Origin: an uncultured Bryobacteraceae bacterium
Lineage (GTDB): Bacteria > Acidobacteriota > Terriglobia > Bryobacterales > Bryobacteraceae
Direction: 5' to 3'
NCBI GenBank assembly: GCA_938003835.1
Contig: CALKXJ010000020.1
Location: 62,001-126,000 of the forward strand
Length of the DNA stretch: 64,000 nucleotides
Shown here: positions 3,891-59,170 of the stretch, in pieces
Layout: the number at the start of each line of letters is the position of its first letter
Numbering within the stretch: position 1 is the stretch's first letter
Notes under the pieces: model-generated
What the model was told of the DNA's origin: nothing
Seen by the model: the letters and a program-made list of their open reading frames with translations, nothing else
Database searches by the model: none
Translations under genes and position numbers: made by a program

Positions 3891-5483
3891 ATGGCGGAAC
3901 CGACCCTTGCTGCAAGCAATGCTCTGCTGAAGGCGCTGCCCGAGTTTCGCAACGAACCCTGGGCGGACTTTTCCGTCGAGGACAACCGCCGGGCGATGAC
4001 CGAGGCGCTGGCCGCCGTGCGGGCCCAGCTCGGCCGGGAGTACGAGCTTCTGATCGCCGGCCGGCGGCGGAAGGCCGCCCGGCAGTTCATTTCGATCAAC
4101 CCCTCGCGGCCGAGTGAGGTCGTGGGCGTCCACCAGCGCGCCGGCGAGGCCCTGGCCGTGGAGGCTCTCGAGGCGGCGACGGCGTTCTTCCCCGTCTGGA
4201 AGAAGGTGCCCGCCGAGGAGCGCGTCCGGATGCTGCTTCGCGCGGGCGAGCTGCTGCGCCGCCGCAAATTCGAGTTCGAGGCCTGGGAAGTCTTCGAGGC
4301 GGGCAAGACCTGGCCCGAGGCGGACGCCGACGTCTCGGAGGCGATCGATTTCTGCGAGTATTACGCCCGGCAGATGCTCCGGTTCGCCGGCCCCATCCCG
4401 GTGCCGCAGTTTCCCGGCGAGCGGGACGAGTTGCGCTACATCCCGCTCGGTGTCGGCTTGATCATTCCGCCGTGGAACTTCCCGCTGGCCATCCTGGTGG
4501 GCATGACCACGTCGGCGCTGGTCGCCGGCAACACCGTGGTGCTCAAGCCCTCCTCGGACACCCCGACCATCGGCGCGCTTTTTGTTGATGTGCTGCTCGA
4601 AGCCGGTTTTCCGCCCGAGGCAATCCAGTTCGTCACCGGTAGCGGCGCCGAGGTGGGCGACCGCCTGGTCGTTCATCCCAAGACGCGCTTCATCTCTTTC
4701 ACGGGATCCAAGGAGGTGGGGCTCCGGATCAACGAACTGGCGGCCAAGCCGCAGCCGGGACAGATCTGGATCAAGCGCGTGGTGGCGGAGATGGGCGGCA
4801 AGGACGCCATCATCGTCGACTCCGAGGCCGATCTCGACGCCGCCGTCCAGGGCGTGCTGGTTTCCGCTTACGGTTTCCAGGGGCAGAAATGCTCGGCCTG
4901 CTCGCGCGCCATCGTCGACCAGACGCTTTATGAGGAGTTCCTGGAGCGGTTCCTCGCCAAGGTTCGCGCCATCACGGTTGGCCCGGCCGACGACCCGAAC
5001 AACTACATGGGCCCGGTGATCAACGAGCGCGCCATGCAGTCGATCCTCGGCTACATCGAGATCGGCAAGCAGGAGGGTCGGCTGCTCGCCGGCGGGGGTC
5101 GCGCCCCGGGAGAGGGGTACTTCCTCGAGCCCACGGTGTTTGCCGATGTCTCCCCCCGCGCGCGGATCTTCCAGGAGGAGATCTTCGGGCCGGTGCTAGC
5201 GGTGACGCCGGCGCGCGATTTCGATCACGCGCTCGAGCTGGCCAACGACTCCGAGTACGGCCTCACCGGTTCAGTCTATTCGCGGAACCGCGAGAAGCTC
5301 GCCCGCGCCGCCGAAGAGTTCCACGTCGGCAACCTGTACTTCAACCGCAAGTGCACCGGAGCGATGGTGGGCTCGCACCCGTTCGGCGGCTTCAACATGT
5401 CCGGCACGGACTCGAAGGCGGGCGGCCCGGACTACCTGCTCCAGTTCCTGCAAGCCAAATCGATCGGCGAGAAGCTGGGCTGA
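3891..5483 (+). CDS. pruA: L-glutamate gamma-semialdehyde (1-pyrroline-5-carboxylate) dehydrogenase
   Basis: 530 residues, the usual size for the stand-alone enzyme that oxidises glutamate semialdehyde to glutamate with NAD in proline breakdown. The aldehyde dehydrogenase fold is complete: [10 protein letters not shown] substrate/NAD segment, FTGSKEVG near residue 270, general base Glu300 (VAEMGGKD) and catalytic Cys334 ([13 protein letters not shown]), which is typical of the P5C dehydrogenase clade. An in-frame ATG at 3879 is also possible; neither start has a strong ribosome site. No proline dehydrogenase gene is adjacent, so the partner activity must be encoded elsewhere. It follows the YtxH gene by four bases. 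Confidence 0.93.
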
Positions 5484-6331
5484 AACGGCAACAAGAATCC
5501 GACGGAAGCACCTGACCCGAGGAGTGTCGGAAGCGCTTTCGCATCGTGACTCCGCCAGCGGAGGCGCGAGCGTTGACCGCGTCGGATGCACGAGCGGTTC
5601 GATTAGCCTCTGCAGGCTTGAGGGAGCGCCGGGAGACGAGTCATGCCGTGAGTTCCGCGGCGAGGATGAATCCGAAATTCTGGCTGACGCCGAACAGTTC
5701 ATTGAAGAGCAAAAAGCTAAGAGTGACGATCTGACCCAATAAGTCGAGACCTCGACTTGTTTGGCGCGCTTTATCCAATGCCACCGAGGCACAAGCGCAA
5801 GCGATCCCAGACATGACGCTGGCCATGTCCAGGGGTCAGAGCGGCCGGTAACTGCCAGGTAGGTTGACTCGGAAAGGAAACCAAGCGGAACCGCGGCATC
5901 GGCGCTCGCCTCGGTTCGGAATTCGACAAATCTCGCGCACATCAGCGCCGCGAGACGGGAGCCATGCCGTAAAAAAGATCTGTCGAAAAAATCAGCGTAG
6001 ACAATGACGCCTCAATCGTAGCTAACCGGAGTGCGAGGTGCTCATCGGGAGGGAGGTTCACGAACCACGAAAGGAGAAGTAAGAGACGGGCGATTGGACC
6101 TCGGCCGTGTTGAAAGATTCACGAAAGATGGTCGCCGCCTCAGGCAATCGTGCGAAGGAGACCGTCAGAAGATCCTCGTGCCACGCTGGCATCTCGTTGG
6201 CGCGCAGCGAGGATGATCTGACAAGACAGAAATGATCGGGATGAGGAGCAGCAGAGACGTGGGCTCGATGACGCGCAAAGGGCGCGGAGCGCCGCCCCAG
6301 GGAGCCCCCCGGCCCGCTCGCCGGAGTGCGT
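5484..6331. other. Gene-poor atypical region
   Basis: About 850 bases with only short unsupported frames on both strands. Composition looks less GC-rich than the flanks, with AT-rich runs (for example around 5701-5725 and 5970-5995). Two small hairpins are visible (5550-5563 and 5741-5758). A minus-strand frame at 5641-5826 encodes a hydrophobic stretch ending LFNELFGVSQNFGFILAAEL, which might be a decayed membrane-protein fragment, but I cannot assign it. I see no tRNA-like fold or recognised RNA gene. Confidence 0.5.
5741..5758. repeat. Perfect inverted repeat (8-bp arms)
   Basis: AAGTCGAG-AC-CTCGACTT, a near-perfect palindrome with a two-base centre, inside the gene-poor region. It could be a protein-binding dyad or cruciform. 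There is no T-run, so a classical terminator is unlikely. Confidence 0.5.
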
Positions 6332-6337
6332 CAGAAT
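6332..6337 (+). promoter_or_regulatory. Putative -10 box (CAGAAT), 6 bases from start codon
   Basis: CAGAAT, then GGAGGC, then the ATG at 6344. The six-base gap puts the expected transcription start at the start codon. The intervening GGAGG is too close to act as a normal Shine-Dalgarno sequence. Confidence 0.4.
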
Positions 6338-6343
6338 GGAGGC

Positions 6344-7411
6344 ATGGGGCTGCGTTTGGCCGTTCTGGGCCTGGCCTTGGTGGCTGCCGCGCCGGCCCAG
6401 CAGCGCCTTACCGTCAAGCAACTGGTAGAGTTCGTTCTTTCCTCGATCGAACTCGAGCATCCGGACCGCCAGGTAGCCGGGTTCCTGAAAAACGTCATTC
6501 TGAGCGAACGTCTGGACGACCGCACCATCGAGTCGCTCCAGGGTCGCGGCGCCGGGCCGAGGACGGTGGAAGCCCTACGCCGCCTGCGCGACGCCAGCCA
6601 GAGCCTGCCGCCGCCCGAGCCGGTGAAGCCCGAGCAGAAGGCGCCTGTCCGCCCGCCGCCCCCGCCCGAAGAACAGCAGCGGATCATCGAGGAGGTCCGC
6701 GAGTACGCACTCAACTATACGCGGCGGCTGCCCGACTTCATCTGCGTCCAGGTGACGCGCCGTTACGCGGATCCGAGCGGCCTCGAGTTCTGGCGGCGTC
6801 TCGACACCGTGACGGCGCGCGTCAGCTACTTTGAGCAAAAGGAAGACTACAAGGTCATTCTCCTGAACGACCGGCCGGTCGACCTGACCATGGACGACGT
6901 CGGTGGCTCGACCTCGACGGGTGAGTTCGGCACCCTGCTCAAGGAGATCTTCGAGCCGGAGACCGAAGCCAGCTTCCGCTGGCTGCGCTGGGGCCGCCTG
7001 CGTGGCCGCCTCACCCACGTCTACGAATATCGGGTTCGGAAAGACAAGTCCAAGTGGACCATCACCTGGGAGCGCAAACTGAGCACGGTGCCGGCCTACA
7101 ACGGCCTCATCTATGTCGATCACGACACCTTGCAGGTGCTCCGCGTCACGCTCCAGGCGCAGGACATCCCGCCCGATTTTCCCATCCAGGAGGCGGGCAC
7201 CGTGCTCGACTACGATTACGTCGACATTGCCGGGCACCAGTACCTGCTGCCGCTCAAGTTCGCCATGCGCATGCGCCAGGGCCGCCTGCTGGTTAAGAAC
7301 GACGTCGAGTTCCGCATGTACCGGAAGTTCGGCGCCGAGGCGGTGATCACTTTCGAGACGCCGGAACCCTTGAGCGAGGAGGTGACCACGGAGCAGCCGC
7401 CGCAGGAGTAG
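6344..7411 (+). CDS. Exported protein of unknown function
   Basis: 355 residues. The N-terminus is a signal peptide (MGLRLAVLGLALVAAAPAQQ) when read from the ATG at 6344, which I prefer to the GTG at 6326. A proline-rich linker (residues about 90-112, PPPPPEEQQR) leads into a body starting ALNYTRRLPDFICVQVTRRY, with later segments (WEFRLSTVPAYNGLIYVD-like) resembling uncharacterised acidobacterial exported proteins that have an outer-membrane-lipoprotein-sorting-like beta fold. That resemblance is from memory of the style and is not a firm family call. It converges on the next gene with only two bases between stops. Confidence 0.75.
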   Translation: MGLRLAVLGLALVAAAPAQQRLTVKQLVEFVLSSIELEHPDRQVAGFLKNVILSERLDDRTIESLQGRGAGPRTVEALRRLRDASQSLPPPEPVKPEQKAPVRPPPPPEEQQRIIEEVREYALNYTRRLPDFICVQVTRRYADPSGLEFWRRLDTVTARVSYFEQKEDYKVILLNDRPVDLTMDDVGGSTSTGEFGTLLKEIFEPETEASFRWLRWGRLRGRLTHVYEYRVRKDKSKWTITWERKLSTVPAYNGLIYVDHDTLQVLRVTLQAQDIPPDFPIQEAGTVLDYDYVDIAGHQYLLPLKFAMRMRQGRLLVKNDVEFRMYRKFGAEAVITFETPEPLSEEVTTEQPPQE

Positions 7412-7413
7412 GC

Positions 7414-7797
7414 TCAGACCTGGTCGTAGAGGATCGCGTTGAACTTCGTCAGGTTCTTCTCCATCGCTGGCCAGACCCGCTGGTGGTCGTCGGTGGCCAC
7501 CCAGGCCAGGCGCTGCTCTTCGGTCTCGAAGCTGATGAGCAGCTTGTAGGTGGCCTTGGTGGGCACCTCGCCCACCACCGCGTGGCGGAGCTTCAGGAGC
7601 TTGACGTCGACAAAACCGGGCTGTTTGCGGATCACAGGAGAAAACGTCTTATGGAAGGCCGCTTCGAGGGCCTGCTCCTTCCCTGGGGCCACCTCGAGAT
7701 CGCACTGAAGCTGGATGGGCTTTCCCGCTGCCCGCGCCGGCACGCCGGCTGCCAGGCCGGCCGCGGCAACCGTCTTGAGATACGCTCTGCGATTCAT
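7414..7797 (-). CDS. Exported antibiotic biosynthesis monooxygenase (ABM)-like protein
   Basis: 127 residues. It has a twin-arginine-like signal (MNRRAYLKTVAAAGLAAG) and then a single ferredoxin-like ABM/dabb-type domain: IQLQCDLEVAPGKEQALEAA, a helix ending VIRKQPGFVDVKLLK, and YKLLISFETEEQRLAWV. Members include small cofactor-free monooxygenases and many proteins of unknown role; the export signal is unusual for the group and the substrate cannot be inferred. The start is six bases from a CATAAT box, with no Shine-Dalgarno sequence. Confidence 0.75.
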   Translation of the reverse strand: MNRRAYLKTVAAAGLAAGVPARAAGKPIQLQCDLEVAPGKEQALEAAFHKTFSPVIRKQPGFVDVKLLKLRHAVVGEVPTKATYKLLISFETEEQRLAWVATDDHQRVWPAMEKNLTKFNAILYDQV

Positions 7798-7803
7798 GCG
7801 CTT

Positions 7804-7809
7804 ATTATG
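7804..7809 (-). promoter_or_regulatory. Putative -10 box (CATAAT), 6 bases from start codon
   Basis: Reading the minus strand: CATAAT, then AAGCGC, then ATG at 7797. It predicts a leaderless transcript for the ABM-like gene. No ribosome site is present. Confidence 0.5.
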
Positions 7810-7846
7810 GCGCGAACTGCGCGGGTCTCTCCAGAAAGGCGGTGGC

Positions 7847-7852
7847 TATAAT
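7847..7852 (+). promoter_or_regulatory. Putative -10 box (TATAAT)
   Basis: A consensus TATAAT 20 bases before the ATG at 7873, giving a leader of about 14 bases. No good -35 hexamer is seen. Confidence 0.45.
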
Positions 7853-7872
7853 TGACACTGGGATCGCGTCCG

Positions 7873-9429
7873 ATGAGGGGCAGCGCGCGGCGAGGAGCTT
7901 GCTTGGCGGCTTTGGCGGCGGCCGCGGCGCTCCTGCCGGGCCAGACACGCCCGATCGAGCTCGAAAAGCGGCCCGTCTTCCGCGTCGAGGTCGTCGAGAA
8001 GATCACCATCGCCATCAACTACCGCCACCGCAGCGGGCCGACCCGGATCGACTTCAAGGGGACGGTGCTGATGCCGCGCGCGGCCGGCGAAGCGCAGGTG
8101 GAGAGCAAGCGCGGCTATATCGAGATCGACGCCGAGTTCAAGAACATGAGCTCGCCGATGACATTCGGCGCCGAGTATCTCACCTTCGTCCTCTGGGCGA
8201 TCACGCCGGAGGGTCGCGCCAGCAACCTGGGCGAGGTCGTGGTTCGGAACGGCAAGAGCCGCCTCAAGGTGACGACCGAGCTTCAGGCCTTCGGCCTGGT
8301 GGTGACCGCCGAGCCGTACTTTGCCGTGCGCCATCCGAGCGACCTGGTGGTGCTCGAGAACGAGGTCCGCAAGGACACCAAAGGCATCGTGGACGTCATC
8401 GACGCCAAGTACGAGCTGCTGCGCCGCGGCCAGTATCAGCCGCTGGCTAACCCGCTGATGCTGACGCTCGACCCGAAAGTGCCGGTGGAGCTTTACCAGG
8501 CGCGCAACGCCGTCCAGATCGCCCGCGCCTCCGGCGCCGACCGCTACGCCAAGGAGACGTTTCTCAAGGCGGAACGCAGCCTGCGCCAGGCCGAGGCGTA
8601 TCAGGCTCGCAACGCGGGCTCGAGACCCGTCGCGATGCTGGCGCGCGAGGCGGTCCAGACCGCCGAGGACGCCCGCGAGATCGCCGTGCGCCGGCAGGAG
8701 CAGGAGCAGCTCGCGCGGGAACGCGAGGAGGCCGCCCGGCGCGAGGCGCTCGCCAAAGCCGCCGCCGAAGAAGAGGCCAAACGGCGCGCCGAGGCGGAGG
8801 CGGCGCGCAAGGCCGAAGCGGAGCGGCGGGCCAAGGCGGAAGCTCTGGCCGAGGATCGAGCTTCGGAGGCTGCCCGGCTCCAGCGTGAGCTCGCCGCCGT
8901 GCGCGAGGCTGTCCGCAAGGCCCAGGAAGAGGCCCGGCTGGCCAAGCTGAAGCTCCAGGAGCAGACCGAGCAGCTTTCGGCAGAGCGGGCTCGCTGGGAA
9001 GAGGAGCTCAAGCGTCGCGAGGCCGACGAGGCCGAGCGGCGCCGCCGCCTGGCCGAGCTCGAGCGCGCCGAGCTCCGCCTCCGCCTGGTGGATCAGATCA
9101 GCAAACACCTGCCGGCGCGCGAAACTCCAGGCGGGCTGGCGTTCCAGATCGAGGACGATCTGTTCGAGGCTGGCGGCGCCGAGCTGGCGCCTGCGGGGCG
9201 CGAGCGCTTGGCGCTCGTCACCGGAATTCTGCTCGCTCATCCGGGCCTGGCGTTTTCGGTTTCCGGCTCCGATGTCGCGGCTGAGGCGGTGCGACGCTAC
9301 CTTGCCGGCCGGGGCCTGCCCGAAGCCTCGACGCCGGAGCCCGCCGCCAACGGTTCGCCGGCCGCTCTGGAGGTCTTCATTTCCGGCCCGTCCATCTCTC
9401 CGGCCCGGGAGGCAGGCGCGGGCTTCTGA
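7873..9429 (+). CDS. Exported coiled-coil protein with degenerate OmpA-like C-terminus
   Basis: 518 residues from the ATG at 7873. Order: signal peptide (ACLAALAAAAALLPGQ); a beta-rich domain to about residue 200; a DUF4398-like segment (YAKETFLKAERSLRQAEAYQ); a long Ala/Glu/Arg-rich coiled coil (about 260-400); then a C-terminal stretch matching the start of an OmpA domain (FEAGGAELAPAGRERLALV, ILLAHPGLAFSVSGS). The peptidoglycan-contacting part of OmpA (TDxxG and the Asp/Arg pair) is missing, as if deleted between the second strand and the final helix. Probably an envelope protein; its anchoring to peptidoglycan is doubtful. Confidence 0.75.
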   Translation: MRGSARRGACLAALAAAAALLPGQTRPIELEKRPVFRVEVVEKITIAINYRHRSGPTRIDFKGTVLMPRAAGEAQVESKRGYIEIDAEFKNMSSPMTFGAEYLTFVLWAITPEGRASNLGEVVVRNGKSRLKVTTELQAFGLVVTAEPYFAVRHPSDLVVLENEVRKDTKGIVDVIDAKYELLRRGQYQPLANPLMLTLDPKVPVELYQARNAVQIARASGADRYAKETFLKAERSLRQAEAYQARNAGSRPVAMLAREAVQTAEDAREIAVRRQEQEQLAREREEAARREALAKAAAEEEAKRRAEAEAARKAEAERRAKAEALAEDRASEAARLQRELAAVREAVRKAQEEARLAKLKLQEQTEQLSAERARWEEELKRREADEAERRRRLAELERAELRLRLVDQISKHLPARETPGGLAFQIEDDLFEAGGAELAPAGRERLALVTGILLAHPGLAFSVSGSDVAAEAVRRYLAGRGLPEASTPEPAANGSPAALEVFISGPSISPAREAGAGF

Positions 9430-9487
9430 TCCAGGGGGCCGGCTCGCTTCCCCGTCGGCGGGCGCGGTAGCCTAAACTGACGAAGCG

Positions 9488-9934
9488 ATGTTGCCTGCGC
9501 GATCTTCGCCATGGCTGCTGGCAGCTCTGGCGGCTGTCATATGGCTCGCGTTCTCGGCACAGTTAGGCCTCTATGAGGCCACGGTCCGCTTCAACAAACA
9601 GAATCCCGATCCTTATCGCATCAGCTTCCAGGAACCGCGCTTTCAGGATGCGGCGGCGCTGCTGCCGCTCGAAGAACCGGTCGGTTACGTCTCCAATCTC
9701 GAGCTCAACGAGGTGCGCGGCGTGGCGGCCTTTTTCGGCGCCCAGTACGCGCTGGCGCCCCGCATCCTGATTCCGTTTCCGGATGACCGCGCCGGCCGGT
9801 TCGTTCTGGGCAACTTCTCGCCCGAGGTCGAACTTGCTGACGCTACCTCGCGGCTGGCGCGTGAGCACAACCTGAAGGTGGTCCGCGCCTTCGATTCGGG
9901 CGTCGTCGTCTTCGAGAATTCGAAGCGGCCATGA
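9488..9934 (+). CDS. Membrane-anchored hypothetical protein, partner of GT39-like gene
   Basis: 148 residues with one N-terminal membrane segment (WLLAALAAVIWLAFSAQL) and an extracytoplasmic domain of about 120 residues rich in aromatic and acidic residues. No family is recognised. It shares an ATGA overlap with the following GT39-like gene, so the two are translated together and may act in one envelope glycan step. A TAAACT -10-like box lies nine bases before the start. Confidence 0.7.
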   Translation: MLPARSSPWLLAALAAVIWLAFSAQLGLYEATVRFNKQNPDPYRISFQEPRFQDAAALLPLEEPVGYVSNLELNEVRGVAAFFGAQYALAPRILIPFPDDRAGRFVLGNFSPEVELADATSRLAREHNLKVVRAFDSGVVVFENSKRP

Positions 9935-11364
9935 CGGCACTGATTTCCGTGGCGCTTGCGGTCTTGCTCGGCTGGCTGCTGGTGCGCCTCACCGGGCTTA
10001 CCGATGAGCTACGCCCCCGATGGGCGGCCAGGCTCTGCTGCCTCGCCATGGGCGCCGGTGCGGGCGTCGCGGTCACCTCCGGGATCTTGTATGGGCTGCT
10101 CCGTGCGGGCCTTGCCTCGCGCGCGGGCGTGCTCGGGACGGAGCTCGCGATTCTGGCGGTACTGGCTGTCGCCCAGCGCCGTCGCCTGCGCGCTGCCGCG
10201 ACCGGCCAGCCGGACCTTGCCAGGTTTCGTTTCAACGGCGTCCTGCTGGCCGGCCTGATCGCGGCTCTGGCTCTGCTCATCGCCACGCAGGTCAGCATGG
10301 TGCGCGCGGCGCCGCATGGCAACTGGGACGCCTTCGCCATCTGGAACCTCCGTGCCAAGTTCCTGCTCGCGCCGGGCGAGCTATGGAAGAACGCGGCTTC
10401 GCCGTTGCTCGAGCGGACGCACCCGGAGTATCCGTTGTTGCTCTCGGGCTTCGTGGCGCGCACGTGGCGGCTTGCCGGCGCGGTCTCACCGGCGGCGCCG
10501 CTCGCCACCGGGTATTTGTTCGCCGCCGCCGTCGTGGCGTTGCTCGTCGCCCTGTTGAGTTTGAGCCGCGGCACGGCTGCCGGCCTCCTTGCCGCTCTGG
10601 TCTTTTTCGCCTCGACCTCCTATCTCGAGCAGATCTCCTGGCAATACGCCGACATCCCGCTGAGCTTTTACTTTCTTGCGACGTTCGGCTGCCTGTTGCT
10701 CGGCGTGTTTCACACCGGCCGGCAGGCCCTGGTGGCCTATGCGCTCGCCGGATTCTTCGCCGGCTTCGCTGCGCTAACCAAAGACGAGGGATCGGCGTTC
10801 CTCGTGGTGAGCTCCGCGGTCCTGGCAGGGTGGCTCGGCCGTCGCCTCGGCGCCCGCCAGGCCTGGAGCCGGCTTCGCTGGTGGTTTGCCGGTGCGCTTC
10901 CAGGGCTGGCGCTGTTGGCCGACTTTCGCCTATTTCTGGCGCCGCCGGTGAAGCTCCTCGGCGATCAGACGCTCCCGCAGATTCTCGAGAAACTCGCGGA
11001 CCCCGGCCGGTATCTGGCGCTGGGCCGGGCCTTGCTCACCGAAACAATTGCGCTCGGCGACGGCTGGAGCCACCCGCTCGTCCTGCTTGCCCTGCTGGCC
11101 GCCGTCCTACGCGTCGAATGGGATGAGCGCCTGCGCCTGCCGATTGGGTTTGCGGGGGCGACGCTGGGTGGGATGGCGCTCGTCTACATCGGGGTGTACC
11201 TGATCGCCCATTACGACCTCGACTGGCTGCTCGGCACCTCGCTCGGCCGCCTCTACACGCAGGTGTGGCCCCCCTTGCTTTTCGCCGCCTTCCTTGTGCT
11301 CGGCCGCCCGGCCGATCCCGCGCCGGCTGAGCGGGCTTCCCGTCGCGGGAAAAAAGCAAGATAA
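9931..11364 (+). CDS. Polytopic membrane protein, glycosyltransferase family 39/PMT-like
   Basis: 477 residues, almost entirely hydrophobic, with about 10-12 predicted membrane segments. Features typical of lipid-linked-sugar transferases are an early extracytoplasmic loop with NWDAFAIWNLRAKFLL, the THPEYPLLL motif and AALTKDEGSAFLVV. Such enzymes move a sugar from a polyprenyl-phosphate donor onto an outer acceptor. The acceptor here is unknown. A downstream Lys/Arg tail (RASRRGKKAR) sits on the cytoplasmic side. Coupled to the preceding gene by ATGA. Confidence 0.75.
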   Translation: MTALISVALAVLLGWLLVRLTGLTDELRPRWAARLCCLAMGAGAGVAVTSGILYGLLRAGLASRAGVLGTELAILAVLAVAQRRRLRAAATGQPDLARFRFNGVLLAGLIAALALLIATQVSMVRAAPHGNWDAFAIWNLRAKFLLAPGELWKNAASPLLERTHPEYPLLLSGFVARTWRLAGAVSPAAPLATGYLFAAAVVALLVALLSLSRGTAAGLLAALVFFASTSYLEQISWQYADIPLSFYFLATFGCLLLGVFHTGRQALVAYALAGFFAGFAALTKDEGSAFLVVSSAVLAGWLGRRLGARQAWSRLRWWFAGALPGLALLADFRLFLAPPVKLLGDQTLPQILEKLADPGRYLALGRALLTETIALGDGWSHPLVLLALLAAVLRVEWDERLRLPIGFAGATLGGMALVYIGVYLIAHYDLDWLLGTSLGRLYTQVWPPLLFAAFLVLGRPADPAPAERASRRGKKAR

Positions 11365-51711: not shown

Positions 51712-51740
51712 TTGACAAACGGCTCAGAAAACCTTAAGAT
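51712..51740 (+). promoter_or_regulatory. Sigma-70-type promoter (TTGACA-N17-TAAGAT)
   Basis: TTGACA at 51712-51717, 17-base spacer, TAAGAT at 51735-51740. Predicted start near 51747, giving a leader of about 130 bases before the cytochrome gene. One of two consensus -35 promoters in the window. Confidence 0.7.
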
Positions 51741-51879
51741 TCCAATCTGGAGTTTTTGGTCAAACTTGCTGTGCCGCTCCCGGAGAGGGGCAGGGAGCGC
51801 GGGCAGGAAACGGGGAAGGGGCCCATACGGCCGGAATTCGGATCAGCGTTCCGAGCCTGCGAGGGGAAAGGAGCGGGTT
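51741..51879 (+). promoter_or_regulatory. Structured leader of the cytochrome/ferredoxin/NrfD operon
   Basis: Non-coding stretch of about 130 bases between promoter and first gene. It contains a hairpin with seven-pair arms (CGCTCCC at 51775-51781 and GGGAGCG at 51793-51799, eleven-base loop). No known riboswitch was recognised. The ribosome site AAAGGAG is at 51867-51873. Confidence 0.45.
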
Positions 51880-52338
51880 GTGAAAGGCCGTTGGCAAAAT
51901 TCGATTCACTTGATCCGGCCAGCGGCGGTCTTCCTGGCCGGGCTTGTCCTGTTTCTGGTGGTGCGGGTTTTTGTTGTGCCTCCAACTTTCGGACAGTTTG
52001 GACACTATCGCGGGGCGGTGCTGGATGAGATCCGGGCCCTGCCGGTGAAGTACGCCGGCCAGCAAGCCTGCGCCGCCTGCCACGAAGAGGAAACACACCT
52101 CAAAAGCAAAGGCAAACACGCCAGCGTGGCGTGCGAAACCTGCCACGGCCCCGCAGCACAGCATGCGGAGGATCCCGGATCGGTCAGGCCAGGGAAGCCC
52201 GAGGAGACGGCCTTGTGCGCGGGCTGTCACGAGATGGACGCGGCCAAACCGAAGTGGTTCCCGCAGGTGAATACCAAGGAGCACATGGCCGGGATGCGGT
52301 GCCTGGAGTGTCACCCCGCCCATGATCCGGCGCCTTGA
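51880..52338 (+). CDS. Membrane-anchored tetraheme c-type cytochrome
   Basis: 152 residues. One N-terminal membrane segment (about residues 15-33, AAVFLAGLVLFLVVRVFVV) and four CxxCH haem motifs, Cys at 64/67 with His68, 85/88 with His89, 113/116 with His117, and 141/144 with His145, giving a periplasmic tetrahaem domain. It resembles the cytochrome subunits of quinol-linked redox complexes (NrfH- or DsrJ-like roles). Starts at GTG (51880), with AAAGGAG upstream. First gene of the operon with the ferredoxin-type and NrfD-type proteins. Confidence 0.9.
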   Translation: MKGRWQNSIHLIRPAAVFLAGLVLFLVVRVFVVPPTFGQFGHYRGAVLDEIRALPVKYAGQQACAACHEEETHLKSKGKHASVACETCHGPAAQHAEDPGSVRPGKPEETALCAGCHEMDAAKPKWFPQVNTKEHMAGMRCLECHPAHDPAP

Positions 52339-52356
52339 GAGAGAAGGGAGAAGGGT

Positions 52357-53100
52357 ATGGAGACGACGCGCCGAGAGATCTTAAAAGGAGCCGGTCTGCT
52401 TTTGATTTTGGGGGCGCGGGCCAATCCCGGCGGGGCGCCCCAGACGGCCGCCGCCGCAGGGAGCTACGATCCGCACCAGCACCTATGGGCGATGACGATC
52501 GACATCGACAAGTGCATCGGCTGCGGCCACTGTGTGCGCGCCTGCGCGCAGGAAAACGACGTACCGGAGGAGTATTTTCGGACCTGGATCGAGCGGTACG
52601 AAATTGATGGCAGCAACCTGGAGCACCCGACGGTCACCTCGCCAGACGGCGGCAAACACGGCTTTCCGCCTTCCTCGGAGACGAGGACCAAACAGTTCTT
52701 CGTGCCGAAGCTGTGCAACCACTGCCTGGAATCGCCCTGCGTGCAAGTCTGCCCGGTGGGGGCGACGTTCCACTCGCCGGACGGGGTAGTGCTGGTGGAC
52801 GAGTCCTATTGCCTGGGTTGCCGTTACTGCGTGCAGGCCTGCCCGTACGGCTGCCGCTACATTCATCCCGAGAAGTTGACGGTGGACAAGTGCACGTTCT
52901 GTTACCACCGCATCACCAAAGGGCTCACCACCGCCTGTTGCGAAGCTTGTCCGACGCAAGCGCGGGTGCTGGCGGATTTGAAGAATCCCGCCGATCCGGT
53001 GCATGCCTTTCTGAGGGAGAACAAGGTTCAGGTTCTCAAGCCGCACATGGCCACGCGCTCCAAGGTGTTCTACCGTGCGCTGGACGGCGCCGTGCGTTGA
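52357..53100 (+). CDS. Tat-signal 4Fe-4S ferredoxin-type protein (NrfC/DsrO/HybA class)
   Basis: 247 residues. Twin-arginine signal (METTRREILKGAGLLL), then four ferredoxin-type Cys groups: CIGCGHCVRAC (53-63), CNHCLESPCVQVCPVG, CLGCRYCVQACPYGC and CTFCYHRI with CCEACPTQA, consistent with four 4Fe-4S clusters (16 Cys in total). This is the electron-transfer subunit of the NrfC/DmsB/PsrB class that links a catalytic periplasmic subunit to an NrfD-type quinone subunit. Located 18 bases after the tetraheme gene and followed by NrfD at 22 bases. Confidence 0.93.
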   Translation: METTRREILKGAGLLLILGARANPGGAPQTAAAAGSYDPHQHLWAMTIDIDKCIGCGHCVRACAQENDVPEEYFRTWIERYEIDGSNLEHPTVTSPDGGKHGFPPSSETRTKQFFVPKLCNHCLESPCVQVCPVGATFHSPDGVVLVDESYCLGCRYCVQACPYGCRYIHPEKLTVDKCTFCYHRITKGLTTACCEACPTQARVLADLKNPADPVHAFLRENKVQVLKPHMATRSKVFYRALDGAVR

Positions 53101-53122
53101 ACGAAGGAGGTGAAGCAAGACG

Positions 53123-54319
53123 ATGGGTCCGGTGCCGGGCGTAGAAGGCTTCATGTATCCGAATGAAGTGGAGCTGCAATGGAGCCTGCTCATCGTGCTG
53201 TATCCTTACATCACCGGCCTGGTGGCGGGAGCATTCATCCTCGCTTCGCTGGAGCGGGTGTTCCGGGTCAAGGCGGTGAAGCCGACCTACCGTCTGGCGT
53301 TGCTGACGGCGTTGGCCTTCCTGCTGGTGGCCCCCCTGCCCCTGCAACTCCATCTGGGCCATCCGGAGCGCAGCTTCGCGATGTTCCTGACGCCTCATCG
53401 CTCTTCCGCCATGGCGATGTTCGGCTTCGTCTATCTCTGGTATCTGCTGGTCGTGCTGCTGGCCGAGATCTGGCTGGATTACCGGGCGGACATCGTGCGA
53501 ATGGCGACCGTGGAGACCGGTTGGAGGCGCTGGCTGTACCGGGTGCTCACTTTAGGGTCGATGAACGTCAGCGAGCAGGCGCGGGCGGTGGACGAGCGGG
53601 TGGGCTATTGGATTACGATCATCGGAATTCCGTCCGCCTTTCTGTTGCACGGCTATGTGGGATTCATCTTCGGGTCGGTCAAGGCGAATGCCTGGTGGTC
53701 GACCCCACTGATGCCGATCGTCTTCCTGTTCTCGGCGATGGTCTCCGGCATCGCTGCGGTCATGTTGCTCTACATGGCCGCCATGCGCCTCCAGGGCAGA
53801 AAGCTGGACATGCTCTGTCTGGACACGATCGCCAGGTATCTTTTTTACGTTTTTCTTATCGATTTTTCCCTGGAAATGCTGGATCTGGTTCACCGGATTT
53901 ACGAAGCGGACGAATCTTTCCGCAGCCTGGATTTCATGGTGCATTCGCGGCTTTGGACCTCGCAGGTGGTGGTGCAAATCCTGCTGGGCACCTGCGTTCC
54001 TCTCCTTCTGCTGGCGTCGGTGCTGCTCTTCAGATTCAGCGAGACGGCGCGGAAGCACATCTACGTGGTCGCGGGGATCCTGACGCTGGTAGGGATCTTT
54101 GCGATGCGGTGGAATGTCGTCATTGGGGGCCAGCTGTTTTCCAAGAGCTATCTGGGCTACACATCCTACAAACTGGACTTCGCCACTCGGGAAGGATTAC
54201 TGCCGGCGATCGTCTTGATGCTGCTTCCCTTCGCCATTCTGTGGGTTCTCGTGAAGCTGCTGCCTCCGTGGAAGCCGGAGGAGGAGGGCCGAGATGGCGT
54301 CTGCGCCGTCGCCTCTTGA
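53123..54319 (+). CDS. nrfD: NrfD/PsrC-type quinone-interacting membrane protein
   Basis: 398 residues with about ten membrane segments. NrfD features: YPYITGLVAGAFILASLERV near the N-terminus, PLPLQLHLGHPERSFAMF after the second segment, and repeated aromatic helix ends. The family oxidises or reduces menaquinone or ubiquinone and passes electrons to a 4Fe-4S subunit. Strong AAGGAGGTGA (53104-53113) sets the start. No molybdopterin catalytic subunit precedes or follows, so the complex resembles a DsrJOP- or Qrc-style module without an enzymatic head. Overlaps the next gene by 26 bases. Confidence 0.9.
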   Translation: MGPVPGVEGFMYPNEVELQWSLLIVLYPYITGLVAGAFILASLERVFRVKAVKPTYRLALLTALAFLLVAPLPLQLHLGHPERSFAMFLTPHRSSAMAMFGFVYLWYLLVVLLAEIWLDYRADIVRMATVETGWRRWLYRVLTLGSMNVSEQARAVDERVGYWITIIGIPSAFLLHGYVGFIFGSVKANAWWSTPLMPIVFLFSAMVSGIAAVMLLYMAAMRLQGRKLDMLCLDTIARYLFYVFLIDFSLEMLDLVHRIYEADESFRSLDFMVHSRLWTSQVVVQILLGTCVPLLLLASVLLFRFSETARKHIYVVAGILTLVGIFAMRWNVVIGGQLFSKSYLGYTSYKLDFATREGLLPAIVLMLLPFAILWVLVKLLPPWKPEEEGRDGVCAVAS

Positions 54320-56054
54320 ACATGCCAAAGGCGAGCTCGAAGAGAGGCTGAACCGGATCGAGGCGCGGCTGGGGGAAATCGAGCGGCGGCTGGGGATCGC
54401 CGATGGCGCGGCGCTGGGTGCAGGCGCTGCTGCGGAAACCGCGGCGGAGTCGCCGGAGCGGCAGTGGGTGGAGGCGGGGCATCTGCCGGGGCTCGCGGGC
54501 AAGTCGTTGCTGGGTCTGGCGGCCGCCTATCTGCTCCGGGCTTTCACCGAAAGCGGCATGCTGGCGCCCGCCGTCGGGGTCGCGCTCGGACTGATCTACG
54601 CCCTGGCCTGGCTGGTATGGGCGGCTCGCACGCCGGCGAGCGAAGCGCTCACCGTGCTGGTGAGGGCGCTGACATCGGCGCTCATTCTCGGCCCGCTGCT
54701 CTGGGAGGCCCACCTGAGATTTCGAGCGATCGATTCCTGGCAGACGGCCGGCGTTCTGGTGTTGTTCGTGGGGATGGCGCTGGCGATCTCCTGGCGCAAG
54801 AATCACACCGCGGTGGCGCTCATCGGCTCCTTGGCCGGAATGTTTCTGAGCGCGGCCTTCCTGCTCCGCACCCACGATCTGGTCCCTTATACCGTGGCGT
54901 TGCTGGCGATGGCGGCCGCCGTGGAGGCTTCGGCCTGTCTCGAGCACTACCTGGGAGAACGCTGGATCGTTGCGGGGGTGACGAACCTCGCCGTGCTGCT
55001 GCTGACTTTCATCGCGACGAAGCCGCCGGGCAGCCTGCGGAGCTATGTGCCGGTGGATCGGGCGGAGGCGATCGCAGCGCAGGCGGCTCTGGTGGGGATT
55101 TATCTGGCCAGCACGATGGTGAGGACGCTTTTACGAGGATTCCGAATCTCCGTGTTCGAGCTGGCCCAGGCGACAGCCGCGCTCGGCATTGGCGTCTGGG
55201 GCGCCATCACGGTGGCCCACGGACACCCCCGGGCGGTTCTGGCGGCGGGCCTGTTCTGCGGCCTCTCCGGGATTCTGTGCTACGTGGTCTCCTTTGCGTT
55301 CCTGGAGCGCCGGGCGAGAAACGACCGGAATTTTTACAGCTATGCCAGTTTCGGGCTGGCGCTGGTGCTGGCCGCGAGCGGATTGCTGCTCGCAGGCACC
55401 GCGCGCGTGCTGCTGTGGGCCGCACTCGCTACGGCCTTTGTCGTGGCCGGGCGCGAGTCCGGACGCATGCTGCTGAAGCTACATGCCGGCATCTACGCGT
55501 CGCTTGCGGTCTCCGTGTCCGGGCTTGCCGCGACAGCGAACGCGAGCTTGCTGGGCCACGGGCCGCATGAAGCCGGTAGCGGCGCCCCGGCGATGTGGAT
55601 TGCTGCGGCCGGGGCTTTGAGCGGTTACGGGCTGCTGCTGCGAAGCGGATTGCCGCAACATGGCACCGCCGTCTATCGGCTGGCAAGCCTGCTTTTGGGG
55701 GCGGGGGCGCTCTGGTCGCTGGCGGCGGCGGGCGCCGTGGCCGTAGGCCTCTGGTGCAGCAGAGCACCGGGAGCCCCGCGCTTTTGTCCGGCGCTGCTGA
55801 CGGCTGTGCTGGCGGCTGTGGCGGCCGCGGCGGGGCTTGGTTTCCGGCACTGGCACCGCCAAGAGCTGAAATGGATGGCTTGGCTGCTCACACTTGCGGC
55901 AACCTACAAGATCTTCTTCCAGGACTTGCCGAAAGCCCACCCGTTCGCGATCGTCTTTTCGCTGCTGCTGTTTGGCGCCCTGCTAATCTGGATGCCGCGG
56001 CTGACGAGACAAACCCAGCCCGGCCGCGTTCCGCCTGGCGCCGACTCTTCCTGA
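54294..56054 (+). CDS. Large polytopic membrane protein with N-terminal coiled coil (DUF2339-like)
   Basis: 586 residues: an N-terminal charged coiled coil (about 8-40, HAKGELEERLNRIEARLGEI) then at least 14 hydrophobic segments filling the rest. The layout matches DUF2339-type membrane proteins of unknown role. It overlaps NrfD by 26 bases with GGAGGAGGG upstream of its ATG, so it belongs to the operon, but a link to electron transfer is only inferred from position. Confidence 0.75.
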   Translation: MASAPSPLEHAKGELEERLNRIEARLGEIERRLGIADGAALGAGAAAETAAESPERQWVEAGHLPGLAGKSLLGLAAAYLLRAFTESGMLAPAVGVALGLIYALAWLVWAARTPASEALTVLVRALTSALILGPLLWEAHLRFRAIDSWQTAGVLVLFVGMALAISWRKNHTAVALIGSLAGMFLSAAFLLRTHDLVPYTVALLAMAAAVEASACLEHYLGERWIVAGVTNLAVLLLTFIATKPPGSLRSYVPVDRAEAIAAQAALVGIYLASTMVRTLLRGFRISVFELAQATAALGIGVWGAITVAHGHPRAVLAAGLFCGLSGILCYVVSFAFLERRARNDRNFYSYASFGLALVLAASGLLLAGTARVLLWAALATAFVVAGRESGRMLLKLHAGIYASLAVSVSGLAATANASLLGHGPHEAGSGAPAMWIAAAGALSGYGLLLRSGLPQHGTAVYRLASLLLGAGALWSLAAAGAVAVGLWCSRAPGAPRFCPALLTAVLAAVAAAAGLGFRHWHRQELKWMAWLLTLAATYKIFFQDLPKAHPFAIVFSLLLFGALLIWMPRLTRQTQPGRVPPGADSS

Positions 56055-56248: not shown

Positions 56249-59170
56249 ATGCCCGAGCTGGCGCCTGAGTCCGTTTTCCGTAATCAGGAACGAGCCGCCC
56301 AGAGCTTTGCCGAGCTGGCCGCGGGGATCCCACCGGCGGCCCTGCGGCGGATCTCGTTGCTCGTCGGAGCTTCGGCCGATCCTGACGGGGCGCTGCACTA
56401 TCTGGTGCGATTTCGCGAGGCGCAGCCGGCGGCCTTCCAGCGCCTTGTCGTCTCCCCAGCCGCCATGCAGTATCTGGTGGCGGTCTTTGCCTCCAGCCGC
56501 TTTCTCTCCGAGGCTCTGCTCCGGCACCCGGACTGGATCGAGCTGCTGCCCGGCCGGGGCGACCTCCACCGCGTCATCAGCCGGGAGGAGCTGGTGGCGG
56601 AGCTTGAGGCGCAACTGGCGCCTGCCGGTCCGGGCGCCTTCTCTCCTCTCAAGCTCGCCGAATTCCGCCGCCGCCAGATGCTGCGGATTCTCGTTCGTGA
56701 CCTGCTCGGGTTCGGCACGCTGGCGGAGATCACCGAGGAGCTGTCGAACCTGGCGGACGCGATCCTCGAGGTCGCCTACCGGAGCCTGCGCGTCGAGCTG
56801 GTACGCCGCTACGGGCGGCCGTTGTATCGCACCGCCGAGGGCGAGACGCGCGAATGCGGCTTTTCCATCATCGCCCTTGGCAAGCTGGGCGGCCGCGAGC
56901 TCAACTACTCCTCCGACATCGACTTGATGTTCGTTTACTCGGCCAACGGGGAGACCGAGGGCCGGGAGCCGGTCAGCAACCGCGAGTTCTTCAGCAAGCT
57001 GGCCAACCACTTGACCGATGTTCTGTCGACCCACACGGCCGAGGGCCGCTGTTACCGTGTCGATCTTCGGCTGCGGCCCGAGGGCAGGCTGGGCGACGTC
57101 GCCTCGTCGGTGGATGCCATGCGCGCCTACTACGAGCAGCGGGCGCGTGACTGGGAGCTGCAAATGCTCATCAAGGCCCGCGTGGCGGCCGGCGATCGCG
57201 CTCCGGGCCAGGAGCTGCTCGATGCGGTCGAGGCACTCATCTACCGCTCGACGCTCGACTTCTCGGCCGTCGAATCGGTTTCGGAGACGCGCGAGCGCAT
57301 CCATGAGAAGACCGGGCGGCGCCGGATGCGCGGCGGCGGGCTGAACGTGAAGCTGGCCCGGGGCGGCATCCGGGACATCGAGTTCTTGGTGCAATGCCTC
57401 CAGCGCTTGCACGGCGGCCGCGAACCTTGGGTGCGCCGTAGCGGCACCCGGGTGGCGCTGCGCCGCCTCAGGGATAAAGACCTGCTTTCCGACACAGAGT
57501 ATTCGCGACTGGCTTCGGCTTACGAGTTTCTGCGGCATCTCGAACATCGCCTTCAGATCGTCGACGACCGCCAGACGCACGAACTGCCCACCGACCGCGA
57601 GGAGCTGGAGATCCTCGCCCGCCGCATGCCCGGGTGGAAGGCGGGGGGCGTTCCCTCCGCCGAGGGCCTGCTCCGCATGCTCAACGTGCACCTGGAAGAG
57701 GTTCAGGAGATTTATGAGCGGGTGATTCACTCGCAGCAGCCGATTTATTACAGCCCGCATCCGGAGGCGCTCACCGGAGCAGGTCCCGGCGCCGGCGAGG
57801 CGGAGCCGGAGTTGCTGGCCCCGGCGGTGAGCAACCTCGTCAGGTTCCTGGACGAGCGCGCTCCGCGGCTGGCGGCGACGATCGCGCGCAGCCGCCTGCG
57901 GCAAGGCGCCCAGGCCTTCGAACATTTTCTCGAGCAGGTGCTTGACCGGCCCGAATGGCTCGAATGGCTCGAGAGCGATCGGGCGCTGGCCGGCTATGTC
58001 ATTGACCTGTTCGAACACAGCTCGCATTATGCCGAGCAGCTTGTCCGCAAGCCGGAGCTGCTCGAAGAGCTGCGTTGCATCGGCGAGGAGCCGGACCGCG
58101 TGCCCGACTACGCGCAGACGGTGGGAGCCGCAAGCGACGCGGGCGGGCTCCGGCGGCTGTTCGCCCGCCAGATGCTTCGCATCCAGGCCGAGAGCATCTG
58201 CCTGCGGACGCCCATCTTCGACACCCTCAAGCGCACCTCGGCGCTCGCCGACGCCGCCATCGCCGCCTGCTACCGCATGGCGGTGGAGGACGTCCGGCGA
58301 ACCTGGCGCCCCGCGCAGGCCGGCTACGAGCCCCGCGATCAGATGGTGACCGTCGCTCTCGGCCGGCTGGGAATGACGGAGTTCGATCTGGCCTCCGACG
58401 CCGACCTGGTCTTTGTCCTGCCCGATGCCGACGCCGCGGAGATCACCTTCTGGACGCGCGTGGCCGAGCGTATGATCCAGCTCATCACCGCATACACCGG
58501 CGACGGCGTCCTGTTCGCTGTCGACACCCGCCTGCGGCCCAACGGCCGCGAGGGGATGCTCGTGCAGACCGAGCAAGCCTACAAGGACTACTTCGCCCAG
58601 CGGGCCGAGGCCTGGGAGGGCATCACCTACATGAAGTCGCGTGCGGTGGCCGGCCACCTCGCCTGGGGCACCGCGTTCTTGAGCGAGCTTCAGAAATTGG
58701 ACTGGCGGCGGTGGGGCCAGAGCGGGCGTTCCAAGCGCAAGCTCTGGGACATGCGGATGCGACTGGAGAAGGAGCAGGGCGCCGCCAATCCGCTCAAGGC
58801 CGGCCGCGGGGGCTACTACGACATCGATTTCGCCCTGATGTACCTGCGGCTCAAAGCAGCCGGCTTCTTCTTCCCTGTGCTCAACACGCCGGAGCGCATC
58901 GATGTGCTCGAGAAGATGGGGCATCTCGATCGCGAGGATGCGGCCTTTCTGCTCGATGCCGCCACCTTCTACCGCGCGCTCGATCATGGCTTGCGGGTCT
59001 TCTCCGGTCACGCCGAGGGCAACCTGCCGAAGAGCCGCATGCAACTCGAGGCCCTTCAGAGGCTGGTGAGCCGATGGACCCCGGAGCACCTGCACGACCA
59101 GCCGCTCGACGTCGAGCTGGCGCAGATCCAGGCGCGCACCCGGGAGTTCTTCGAGCGGCTGTTCGGTTAA
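56249..59170 (+). CDS. glnE: Bifunctional glutamine synthetase adenylyltransferase/deadenylase
   Basis: 973 residues, full length for GlnE. Two nucleotidyltransferase domains: N-terminal with ALGKLGGRELNYSSDIDLM near residues 210-225 (adenylyl removal in the known enzymes) and C-terminal with ALGRLGMTEFDLASDADLVF near 705-722 (adenylylation), joined by helical regulatory segments. Controls GlnA by adenylylating Tyr397, which is intact in this window. The ATG at 56249 was chosen over a much longer open frame because the upstream part has no family match; a GATAAT box lies ten bases before it. No glnB is nearby. Confidence 0.95.
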   Translation: MPELAPESVFRNQERAAQSFAELAAGIPPAALRRISLLVGASADPDGALHYLVRFREAQPAAFQRLVVSPAAMQYLVAVFASSRFLSEALLRHPDWIELLPGRGDLHRVISREELVAELEAQLAPAGPGAFSPLKLAEFRRRQMLRILVRDLLGFGTLAEITEELSNLADAILEVAYRSLRVELVRRYGRPLYRTAEGETRECGFSIIALGKLGGRELNYSSDIDLMFVYSANGETEGREPVSNREFFSKLANHLTDVLSTHTAEGRCYRVDLRLRPEGRLGDVASSVDAMRAYYEQRARDWELQMLIKARVAAGDRAPGQELLDAVEALIYRSTLDFSAVESVSETRERIHEKTGRRRMRGGGLNVKLARGGIRDIEFLVQCLQRLHGGREPWVRRSGTRVALRRLRDKDLLSDTEYSRLASAYEFLRHLEHRLQIVDDRQTHELPTDREELEILARRMPGWKAGGVPSAEGLLRMLNVHLEEVQEIYERVIHSQQPIYYSPHPEALTGAGPGAGEAEPELLAPAVSNLVRFLDERAPRLAATIARSRLRQGAQAFEHFLEQVLDRPEWLEWLESDRALAGYVIDLFEHSSHYAEQLVRKPELLEELRCIGEEPDRVPDYAQTVGAASDAGGLRRLFARQMLRIQAESICLRTPIFDTLKRTSALADAAIAACYRMAVEDVRRTWRPAQAGYEPRDQMVTVALGRLGMTEFDLASDADLVFVLPDADAAEITFWTRVAERMIQLITAYTGDGVLFAVDTRLRPNGREGMLVQTEQAYKDYFAQRAEAWEGITYMKSRAVAGHLAWGTAFLSELQKLDWRRWGQSGRSKRKLWDMRMRLEKEQGAANPLKAGRGGYYDIDFALMYLRLKAAGFFFPVLNTPERIDVLEKMGHLDREDAAFLLDAATFYRALDHGLRVFSGHAEGNLPKSRMQLEALQRLVSRWTPEHLHDQPLDVELAQIQARTREFFERLFG

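Follow-up and report, generated by a model that had tools for sequence, protein, structure and literature searches.

A putative stand-alone menaquinol:multihaem cytochrome c oxidoreductase operon conserved across Acidobacteriota

Results and Discussion

Gene content and conservation of the operon

Within a 64,000-nucleotide stretch of DNA from an uncultured Bryobacteraceae bacterium of the phylum Acidobacteriota (GenBank assembly GCA_938003835.1, contig CALKXJ010000020.1, positions 62,001 to 126,000 of the forward strand; hereafter the window), four genes in the same (+) direction form an operon at positions 51880-56054 that probably encodes a stand-alone menaquinol:multihaem-cytochrome c oxidoreductase, comparable to NrfBCD without NrfA or to CbcSTU. 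Genes were called from open frames and profiles rather than by an annotation program, and the reality of the four genes was confirmed. They encode a tetrahaem cytochrome c (51880-52338), an iron-sulfur (Fe-S) protein resembling NrfC, DsrO and TtrB (52357-53100), an NrfD-type quinone-binding membrane protein (53123-54319) and a distantly DUF2339-like polytopic membrane protein (54294-56054), the last overlapping the NrfD gene by 26 nt in the window. A multihaem cytochrome c, an Fe-S protein and an NrfD with no catalytic subunit constitute the gene content of stand-alone quinol:cytochrome c oxidoreductases of the CbcSTU and NrfCD type. The molybdopterin catalytic subunit that characterizes complex iron-sulfur molybdoenzymes of the PsrABC or TtrABC type is absent from the operon genes. 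An earlier interpretation made from the letters of this DNA (the sequence-only reading) had taken the set for an electron-transfer and quinone part without a catalytic subunit that could serve an unlinked periplasmic partner; our analysis supports that view, such a partner being probable.

Relatives of NrfD were found 520 times in genome contigs; the best 80 of the 520 by similarity (the named loci) together with the window gave 81 loci, and the titles naming the group are all acidobacterial. Profile searches of the 80 named loci recovered the NrfD gene at 80, the Fe-S gene at 79, the cytochrome gene at 78 and the fourth gene at 64; the locus lacking the Fe-S gene (L056) and the two lacking the cytochrome gene (L055 and L056) are all contig-edge cases. 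Exactly four CxxCH motifs are present at 78 of the 81 loci, the remaining three comprising two contig edges and a run of N (L042). Median intergenic gaps are 21, 12 and -1 nt (63, 78 and 59 pairs, with first-start gene calls). When neighbouring genes were clustered, no additional family occurred at more than nine of the 81 loci; the next commonest, found at 9, 8, 8, 6 and 6 loci, comprise a response regulator, an outer-membrane barrel, a MacB-type permease, an ABC transporter and a protein kinase, as judged from one member each.

The trio of cytochrome, Fe-S and NrfD genes is present at 17 of 20 loci elsewhere in the phylum (L150 and L161 carry distant NrfDs of 101 and 114 bits) and at all ten of another set of module loci (L166-L172 and L174-L176); with the distant NrfDs set aside, 27 of the 28 further loci of other acidobacterial genomes keep it. 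Four of the genome's own six molybdopterin-domain proteins were used as tblastn queries against 112 stretches, and matches were confined to L150, L161 and L173, all distant-NrfD loci, and to L086, where the match is read as a piece of a hydrogenase diaphorase. A local loss in this genome would leave homologues flanked by a catalytic subunit; these were looked for, and none was found at the module loci searched. Because the same gene content, without such a subunit, is kept at the 80 named loci and at 27 of the 28 further ones, local loss is rejected.

Near-full-length NrfDs of this family (at least 360 bits) occur in 37 of 297 acidobacterial genomes, representing 25 family codes, and a fragment occurs in G164; the module is widespread but patchy in the Acidobacteriota. 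A sister branch of 14 loci, with NrfD scores of 552-590 bits (60-61% identity as measured for G019 and G037), has cytochromes with eight haems at 12 loci, seven at L146, which lies at a contig start, and four at L148, while in the same set all 13 loci with an NrfD of at least 693 bits have four. By eye, the eight-haem cytochrome resembles two copies of the four-haem one in tandem. The eight-haem modules are those at L142-L145, L147, L151-L154, L156, L167 and L168. At L097 and L155, window-type and DsrP-type modules stand in tandem or interleaved within one gene run.

Features of the core proteins

The cytochrome, 152 amino acids (aa) from a GTG start at 51880, contains four CxxCH motifs, in agreement with its earlier description as tetrahaem, and an N-terminal hydrophobic stretch read as a putative membrane anchor. 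All four motifs are conserved in the cytochrome alignment, together with further His residues that could serve as distal haem ligands. The Fe-S protein (247 aa) had been called a 16-Cys ferredoxin; its four 4-Cys motifs do supply 16 ligands, and two more residues bring the total to 18 Cys. Seventeen of these are conserved in a 78-row alignment, as is the Arg5-Arg6 pair in the twin-arginine (Tat)-like motif at the N-terminus. This protein scores 86.6 bits against PF13247, and its best PDB match is PsrB (2vpw_B).

The third protein (398 aa) is a member of the NrfD family as first recognized, scoring 128.5 bits against PF03916 (gathering cut-off 25.8). At 201 of its 398 positions conservation is at least 97% across the 81 rows, and because of this conservation and the kept gene set the operon is not a chance assembly. 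His77 and Ser95 of the window NrfD align with His74 and Ser92 of Escherichia coli NrfD, positions linked to quinol binding by Calisto and Pereira (PMC8076601). The closest structural match of the NrfD model (pLDDT 76) is ActC, from alternative complex III (Z 31.7-33.6 over 366-371 residues, rmsd 2.9-3.3), followed by ActF (Z 26.4), bd oxidase (up to 21.9) and the shorter chain of PsrC (20.2). PDB sequence searches with NrfD gave no match up to E 1 with the single sequence and none up to E 0.01 with a profile. Both NrfD and the Fe-S protein score below the curated NCBIfam cut-offs compared, namely those of NrfC/D, DsrO/P, TtrB and QrcC. A plasmid search returned six records for NrfD, all haloarchaeal NrfDs of 27-33% identity, and none for the fourth gene.

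In the route that we propose, the gene products would act as a complex in which NrfD binds and oxidises quinol close to the periplasmic face of the membrane. The exported Fe-S protein would relay the electrons along its four [4Fe-4S] clusters to the tetrahaem cytochrome anchored in the membrane, and from there they would reach multihaem cytochromes encoded elsewhere. A plausible acceptor in this organism is an unlinked conduit of the MtrC-MtrA-MtrB type, so that the module would play a role akin to that of CymA or SirCD in Shewanella, and the fourth protein may be an accessory or assembly factor common to other quinol:multihaem-cytochrome complexes.

The fourth gene and its partners

The fourth gene is an open frame for a 586-aa protein with a confident predicted structure (AlphaFold pLDDT 90.3), in which an N-terminal helix is followed by about 18 helices long enough to span the membrane. 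Its earlier designation as DUF2339-like holds only as a distant likeness: the homologues at L151 and L179 score 31.1 and 14.7 bits against PF10101, under the gathering cut-off of 33.6, and the window copy has no Pfam match. The best Foldseek hit to the model had an E of 0.13 and a second structural alignment was led by helical-repeat and designed proteins; this lack of a useful match does not show that the predicted fold is new. Conserved positions number 16 of 586, against 201 of 398 in NrfD, and such low conservation fits an accessory protein better than a redox core.

Co-occurrence was assessed in 61 relatives, 14 of them module genomes (including two of the eight-haem sister type, G019 and G037, and one with a broken copy, G030) and 47 others, with Fisher tests that ignore phylogeny. 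The fourth gene (profile A2) is found in ten of the 61, nine of which carry the module, one of them broken (p 1e-6). Within the bacterial family it is present in 9 of 12 module genomes versus 1 of 25 others, and G015 and G036 have kept it even though it lies on a different contig from the module. Across the 297 genomes it occurs in 14 of 38 module genomes (the 37 with near-full-length NrfDs plus the G164 fragment) versus 34 of 259 others (p 7e-4); 18 of these 34 belong to one genus code, g84.

We read 31 fourth-gene loci away from a window-type NrfD (L177-L181, L187-L200 and L202-L213); 12 of the 48 fourth-gene genomes among the 297, all g84, are unread. A quinol:multihaem-cytochrome complex is encoded in the stretch at 18 of the 31 loci, and within 1.5 kb at 17, spanning 11 genus codes. 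It is of the cytochrome-DsrO-DsrP type at ten loci (six from g84; at a distance of 4 kb in L178), of the Rieske-cytochrome b-multihaem type at seven (L191 shows only the multihaem gene before the contig ends) and of the NapC type at L192 and L196, the latter also having the Rieske type. Nine copies that are intact or nearly so, L178 among them, lack such a direct neighbour, and another five are fragments at contig ends. Control regions in fourth-gene genomes gave 2 of 19 (Fisher p 0.001 against 18 of 31), counted liberally, L219 having an Fe-S match only and L216 two multihaem matches; by the same liberal rule the fourth-gene loci rise to 20 of 31 through weak cytochrome matches at L193 and L204. 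The DsrP naming is based on one tested member, at L187, which scores 410.7 bits for DsrP (cut-off 350) and 195.4 for DsrO (cut-off 200). At the g84 loci L187, L188, L202, L203, L212 and L213, the fourth-gene homologue lies beside genes for a tetrahaem cytochrome, a DsrO-like and a DsrP-like protein. In a FastTree tree of 99 fourth-gene copies, in which long branches were flagged, at least eight changes of neighbouring system are implied among rows with a partner. This pattern of neighbours suggests that the fourth protein is a shared helper of quinol oxidoreductases feeding multihaem cytochromes.

Candidate electron acceptors

The genome that carries the operon has an Mtr-type cluster on contig C23 (L233, positions 5385-10302), with genes for two decahaem cytochromes, one of the OmcA/MtrC family (497.8 bits; cut-off 209.3) and one of the DmsE/MtrA family (234.1 bits; cut-off 192.2), and for an MtrB/PioB-like porin. 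It also encodes NrfA (443.2 bits) with an NrfH-type gene on contig C7 and a NapC-type protein of 481 aa on contig C8. Among the 61 relatives, MtrC-family genes (E up to 1e-30) occur in 12 of the 14 module genomes versus 18 of the 47 others (p 0.002). Within the bacterial family, the median multihaem-domain count of the module genomes is 17 after subtraction of one, versus 9 in the others (p 0.046; 11 versus 25 genomes, with G030 left out).

Among 111 loci scanned, Rieske-cytochrome b-multihaem groups lie near the module at L038, L144, L154 and L175, and NapC-type genes at L142, L158 and L176. One 38-kb contig of G030 (L240, G030:C194) combines an mtrC-mtrC-mtrA-mtrB cluster, a four-haem protein, a NapC-type gene and a Rieske/multihaem group with a broken NrfD, split over two frames, beside an intact fourth gene; that contig yielded neither the cytochrome nor the Fe-S gene of the module, and with a 10.7-Mb assembly and 10% contamination it is one weak case.

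Two further arrangements were noted in passing. Haem-rich frames with 26, 16 and 34 CxxCH motifs lie near the module at L158 (13649-15670 and 15558-16925) and L032 (3-2501). At L241 (G020:C28:55000-74500), a gene for an MtrA-like decahaem cytochrome and one for an MtrB/PioB porin are followed directly by Fe-S and NrfD-like genes, so that another NrfD-type module is physically linked to an Mtr-like conduit.

Three candidate partners or markers were discarded. NrfA was rejected as the partner for lack of co-occurrence with the module (3 of 14 versus 11 of 47 genomes). The MtrB porin was dropped as a marker, being found in 4 of 14 versus 5 of 47 (p 0.19), and the MHC9-type multihaem protein was rejected as an obligate partner, with no match in the source genome and a distribution of 6 of 14 versus 9 of 47 (p 0.09).

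Comparison with known systems

NrfBCD of E. coli has a multihaem cytochrome, an Fe-S protein and an NrfD in the same order, and the quinone-site His and Ser align; NrfB is annotated as pentahaem, whereas the cytochrome here is tetrahaem. In the E. coli NrfABCD system NrfA adjoins NrfBCD, whereas here it is on another contig beside the NrfH-type gene, and the curated scores fall short of those of NrfC (146.6 bits; cut-off 377.6) and NrfD (52.2 bits; cut-off 347.6). Geobacter Cbc4 (CbcSTU), compared by description only, likewise combines a cytochrome c, an Fe-S protein and a membrane quinol protein, and is called a menaquinol:ferricytochrome c oxidoreductase (PMC11434368). Shewanella SirCD, an Fe-S and NrfD pair, can replace CymA according to the same source, whose descriptions of CbcSTU and SirCD, in the portions consulted, include no DUF2339-like partner. 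NrfCD of Melioribacter (PMC3534657) and cluster 2 of MBNT15 (PMC9386147), which come from other phyla and are likened by description only, have been proposed as catalytic-subunit-free quinol:electron acceptor reductases feeding multihaem cytochromes and Fe(III) reduction. Catalytic-subunit-free NrfD complexes are already known in kind (PMC3534657, PMC9386147, PMC11434368), and to call the operon an undescribed module was too strong. As far as our searches show, the novelty lies in an acidobacterial form that is widespread and strictly conserved, in the sister type with eight haems and in a fourth protein that swaps partners. Among the matches listed in a search of open-licence PMC titles and abstract starts, none concerned this operon or DUF2339 with quinol complexes.

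The sequence-only reading had also likened the set to DsrJOP. The likeness to DsrJOP of DsrMKJOP holds for composition, with a small multihaem cytochrome, an Fe-S protein and an NrfD-type protein, and the four haems that it had noted stand, DsrJ having three (PMC11434368) versus the four CxxCH found at 78 of 81 loci. By score the likeness fails, at 175.6 bits for DsrO (cut-off 200) and 32.5 for DsrP (cut-off 350); the DsrP cut-off is passed elsewhere by a second module with the same fourth gene, that of L187. No scanned flanking gene was named DsrM or DsrK, and no search with a DsrM or DsrK profile was made.

Weighing the proposal against alternatives

A number of observations count against a menaquinol oxidoreductase that feeds an Mtr conduit. 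At L149 a family NrfD (369 bits) stands without cytochrome and Fe-S genes, and the fourth gene is not strictly required, because 13 module loci lack it despite having more than 3 kb of sequence to the right. In the source genome the Mtr genes are not linked to the module, and the C23 porin is marginal, at 25.0 bits (cut-off 23) over residues 36-200 of 635 and 21.4 bits, under the cut-off, in the genome-wide search. Within the bacterial family the link with MtrC falls short of significance (11 of 12 versus 16 of 25, p 0.12) and may for that reason reflect ancestry; no association with the module was seen for NrfA, MtrB or MHC9. A quinol complex or multihaem gene lies near the module at only 7 of 111 loci, and since NapC-type proteins occur in 43 of the 61 relatives, another quinol oxidase could feed Mtr. 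Finally, the direction of electron flow could be reversed.

Such reverse operation, in the manner of QrcABCD, would have hydrogenase, formate dehydrogenase or other enzymes reduce periplasmic cytochromes, which would then deliver electrons through the tetrahaem protein to the menaquinone pool, and we regard it as unlikely. The quinol-complex and multihaem genes seen close to the module are of the Rieske/cytochrome b, NapC or Mtr type, systems usually regarded as quinol-oxidising or electron-exporting, and the next five neighbour families by frequency, at 6 to 9 of 81 loci, consist, from one member each, of regulators, transporters, a kinase and an outer-membrane barrel. The idea draws on Qrc itself, which has a subunit of the NrfD type and acts as a cytochrome c3:menaquinone oxidoreductase (PMC13059093), and on the fact that nothing in the sequence fixes the direction. 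The resemblance of the NrfD model to ActC, its closest fold, raises instead a minimal alternative complex III, working aerobically from quinol through cytochrome c to an aa3-type oxidase. This is improbable: alternative complex III comprises ActB and two NrfD-like subunits, ActC and ActF, whereas the operon encodes just one NrfD and nothing like ActB, and no oxidase subunit was found among the flanking genes scanned; a family present in 37 of 297 genomes is too patchy for a core complex, and ActE has one haem (PMC9386147) versus the four of the operon cytochrome.

A molybdoenzyme complex with an unlinked gene for its catalytic subunit would agree with the presence of molybdopterin-domain proteins in all 61 relatives, and with the six matches in the source genome. 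The 47 module-free genomes have such proteins as well, with no signal at the level of families, and what lies beside the Fe-S gene at module loci is instead a gene for a cytochrome. One of the six matches has an NrfD_2-type gene of its own close by (L162, G000:C25) and another (L165) is read from its neighbourhood as NuoG of complex I. This explanation is very improbable. A menaquinol:multihaem-cytochrome c oxidoreductase is the reading that we prefer.

Promoter-like site and flanking genes

A sigma-70-type promoter-like site lies upstream of the operon on the forward strand (51712-51740; TTGACA, a 17-nt spacer and TAAGAT). It is a consensus match only, at 10 of 12 positions, and one site was found where shuffling predicts 0.5 (sd 0.8), so that it is unremarkable and a weak case for the strong promoter that had been described. 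The structured leader is not confirmed: the operon leader folds no better than its shuffles (z 0.16; 108 of 200 equal or better), and a scan of the window found no Rfam family at its cut-off, so that neither a structured leader nor a known RNA element is supported. The operon is followed by glnE (56249-59170; PF03710, 380.9 bits) and preceded by a gene for a 726-aa protein with no Pfam match. The flanking genes scanned (a GH5-like gene, that for the 726-aa protein, a carboxypeptidase-regulatory-domain gene and glnE) include no molybdopterin or cytochrome reductase subunit, just as the sequence-only reading had stated. In all, its observation is partly confirmed and its interpretation partly supported.

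Significance for acidobacterial electron export

Many soils and peats hold abundant Acidobacteriota, whose export of electrons from the membrane is poorly understood. According to Baker et al. (PMC8805035), Group 5 MtrCAB clusters, from unclassified Acidobacteriia or Bryobacterales, have no putative inner-membrane quinone oxidoreductase nearby, whereas almost all other groups differ, in a search confined to those loci. Zhong and Shi (PMC6295460) counted 0 CymA, 2 CbcL-type and 19 ImcH homologues in Acidobacteria. The module is a candidate that fits this gap, for which NapC/ImcH-like proteins are rivals. More tentatively, and as a possibility that we put forward without favouring it, the fourth protein may be a general helper (a subunit, an assembly factor or a haem-wire docking factor) reused in four or more kinds of complex whose membrane parts are of three unrelated sorts (the present NrfD type together with a DsrO/DsrP type, Rieske/cytochrome b, and NapC/ImcH-like), with the NrfD module being one of the missing MtrCAB quinol oxidases. 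The operon is a concrete and testable further candidate for the quinol oxidation that would feed MtrCAB in Acidobacteriota, and the setting of its fourth gene offers a functional context for a membrane protein that is otherwise unstudied.

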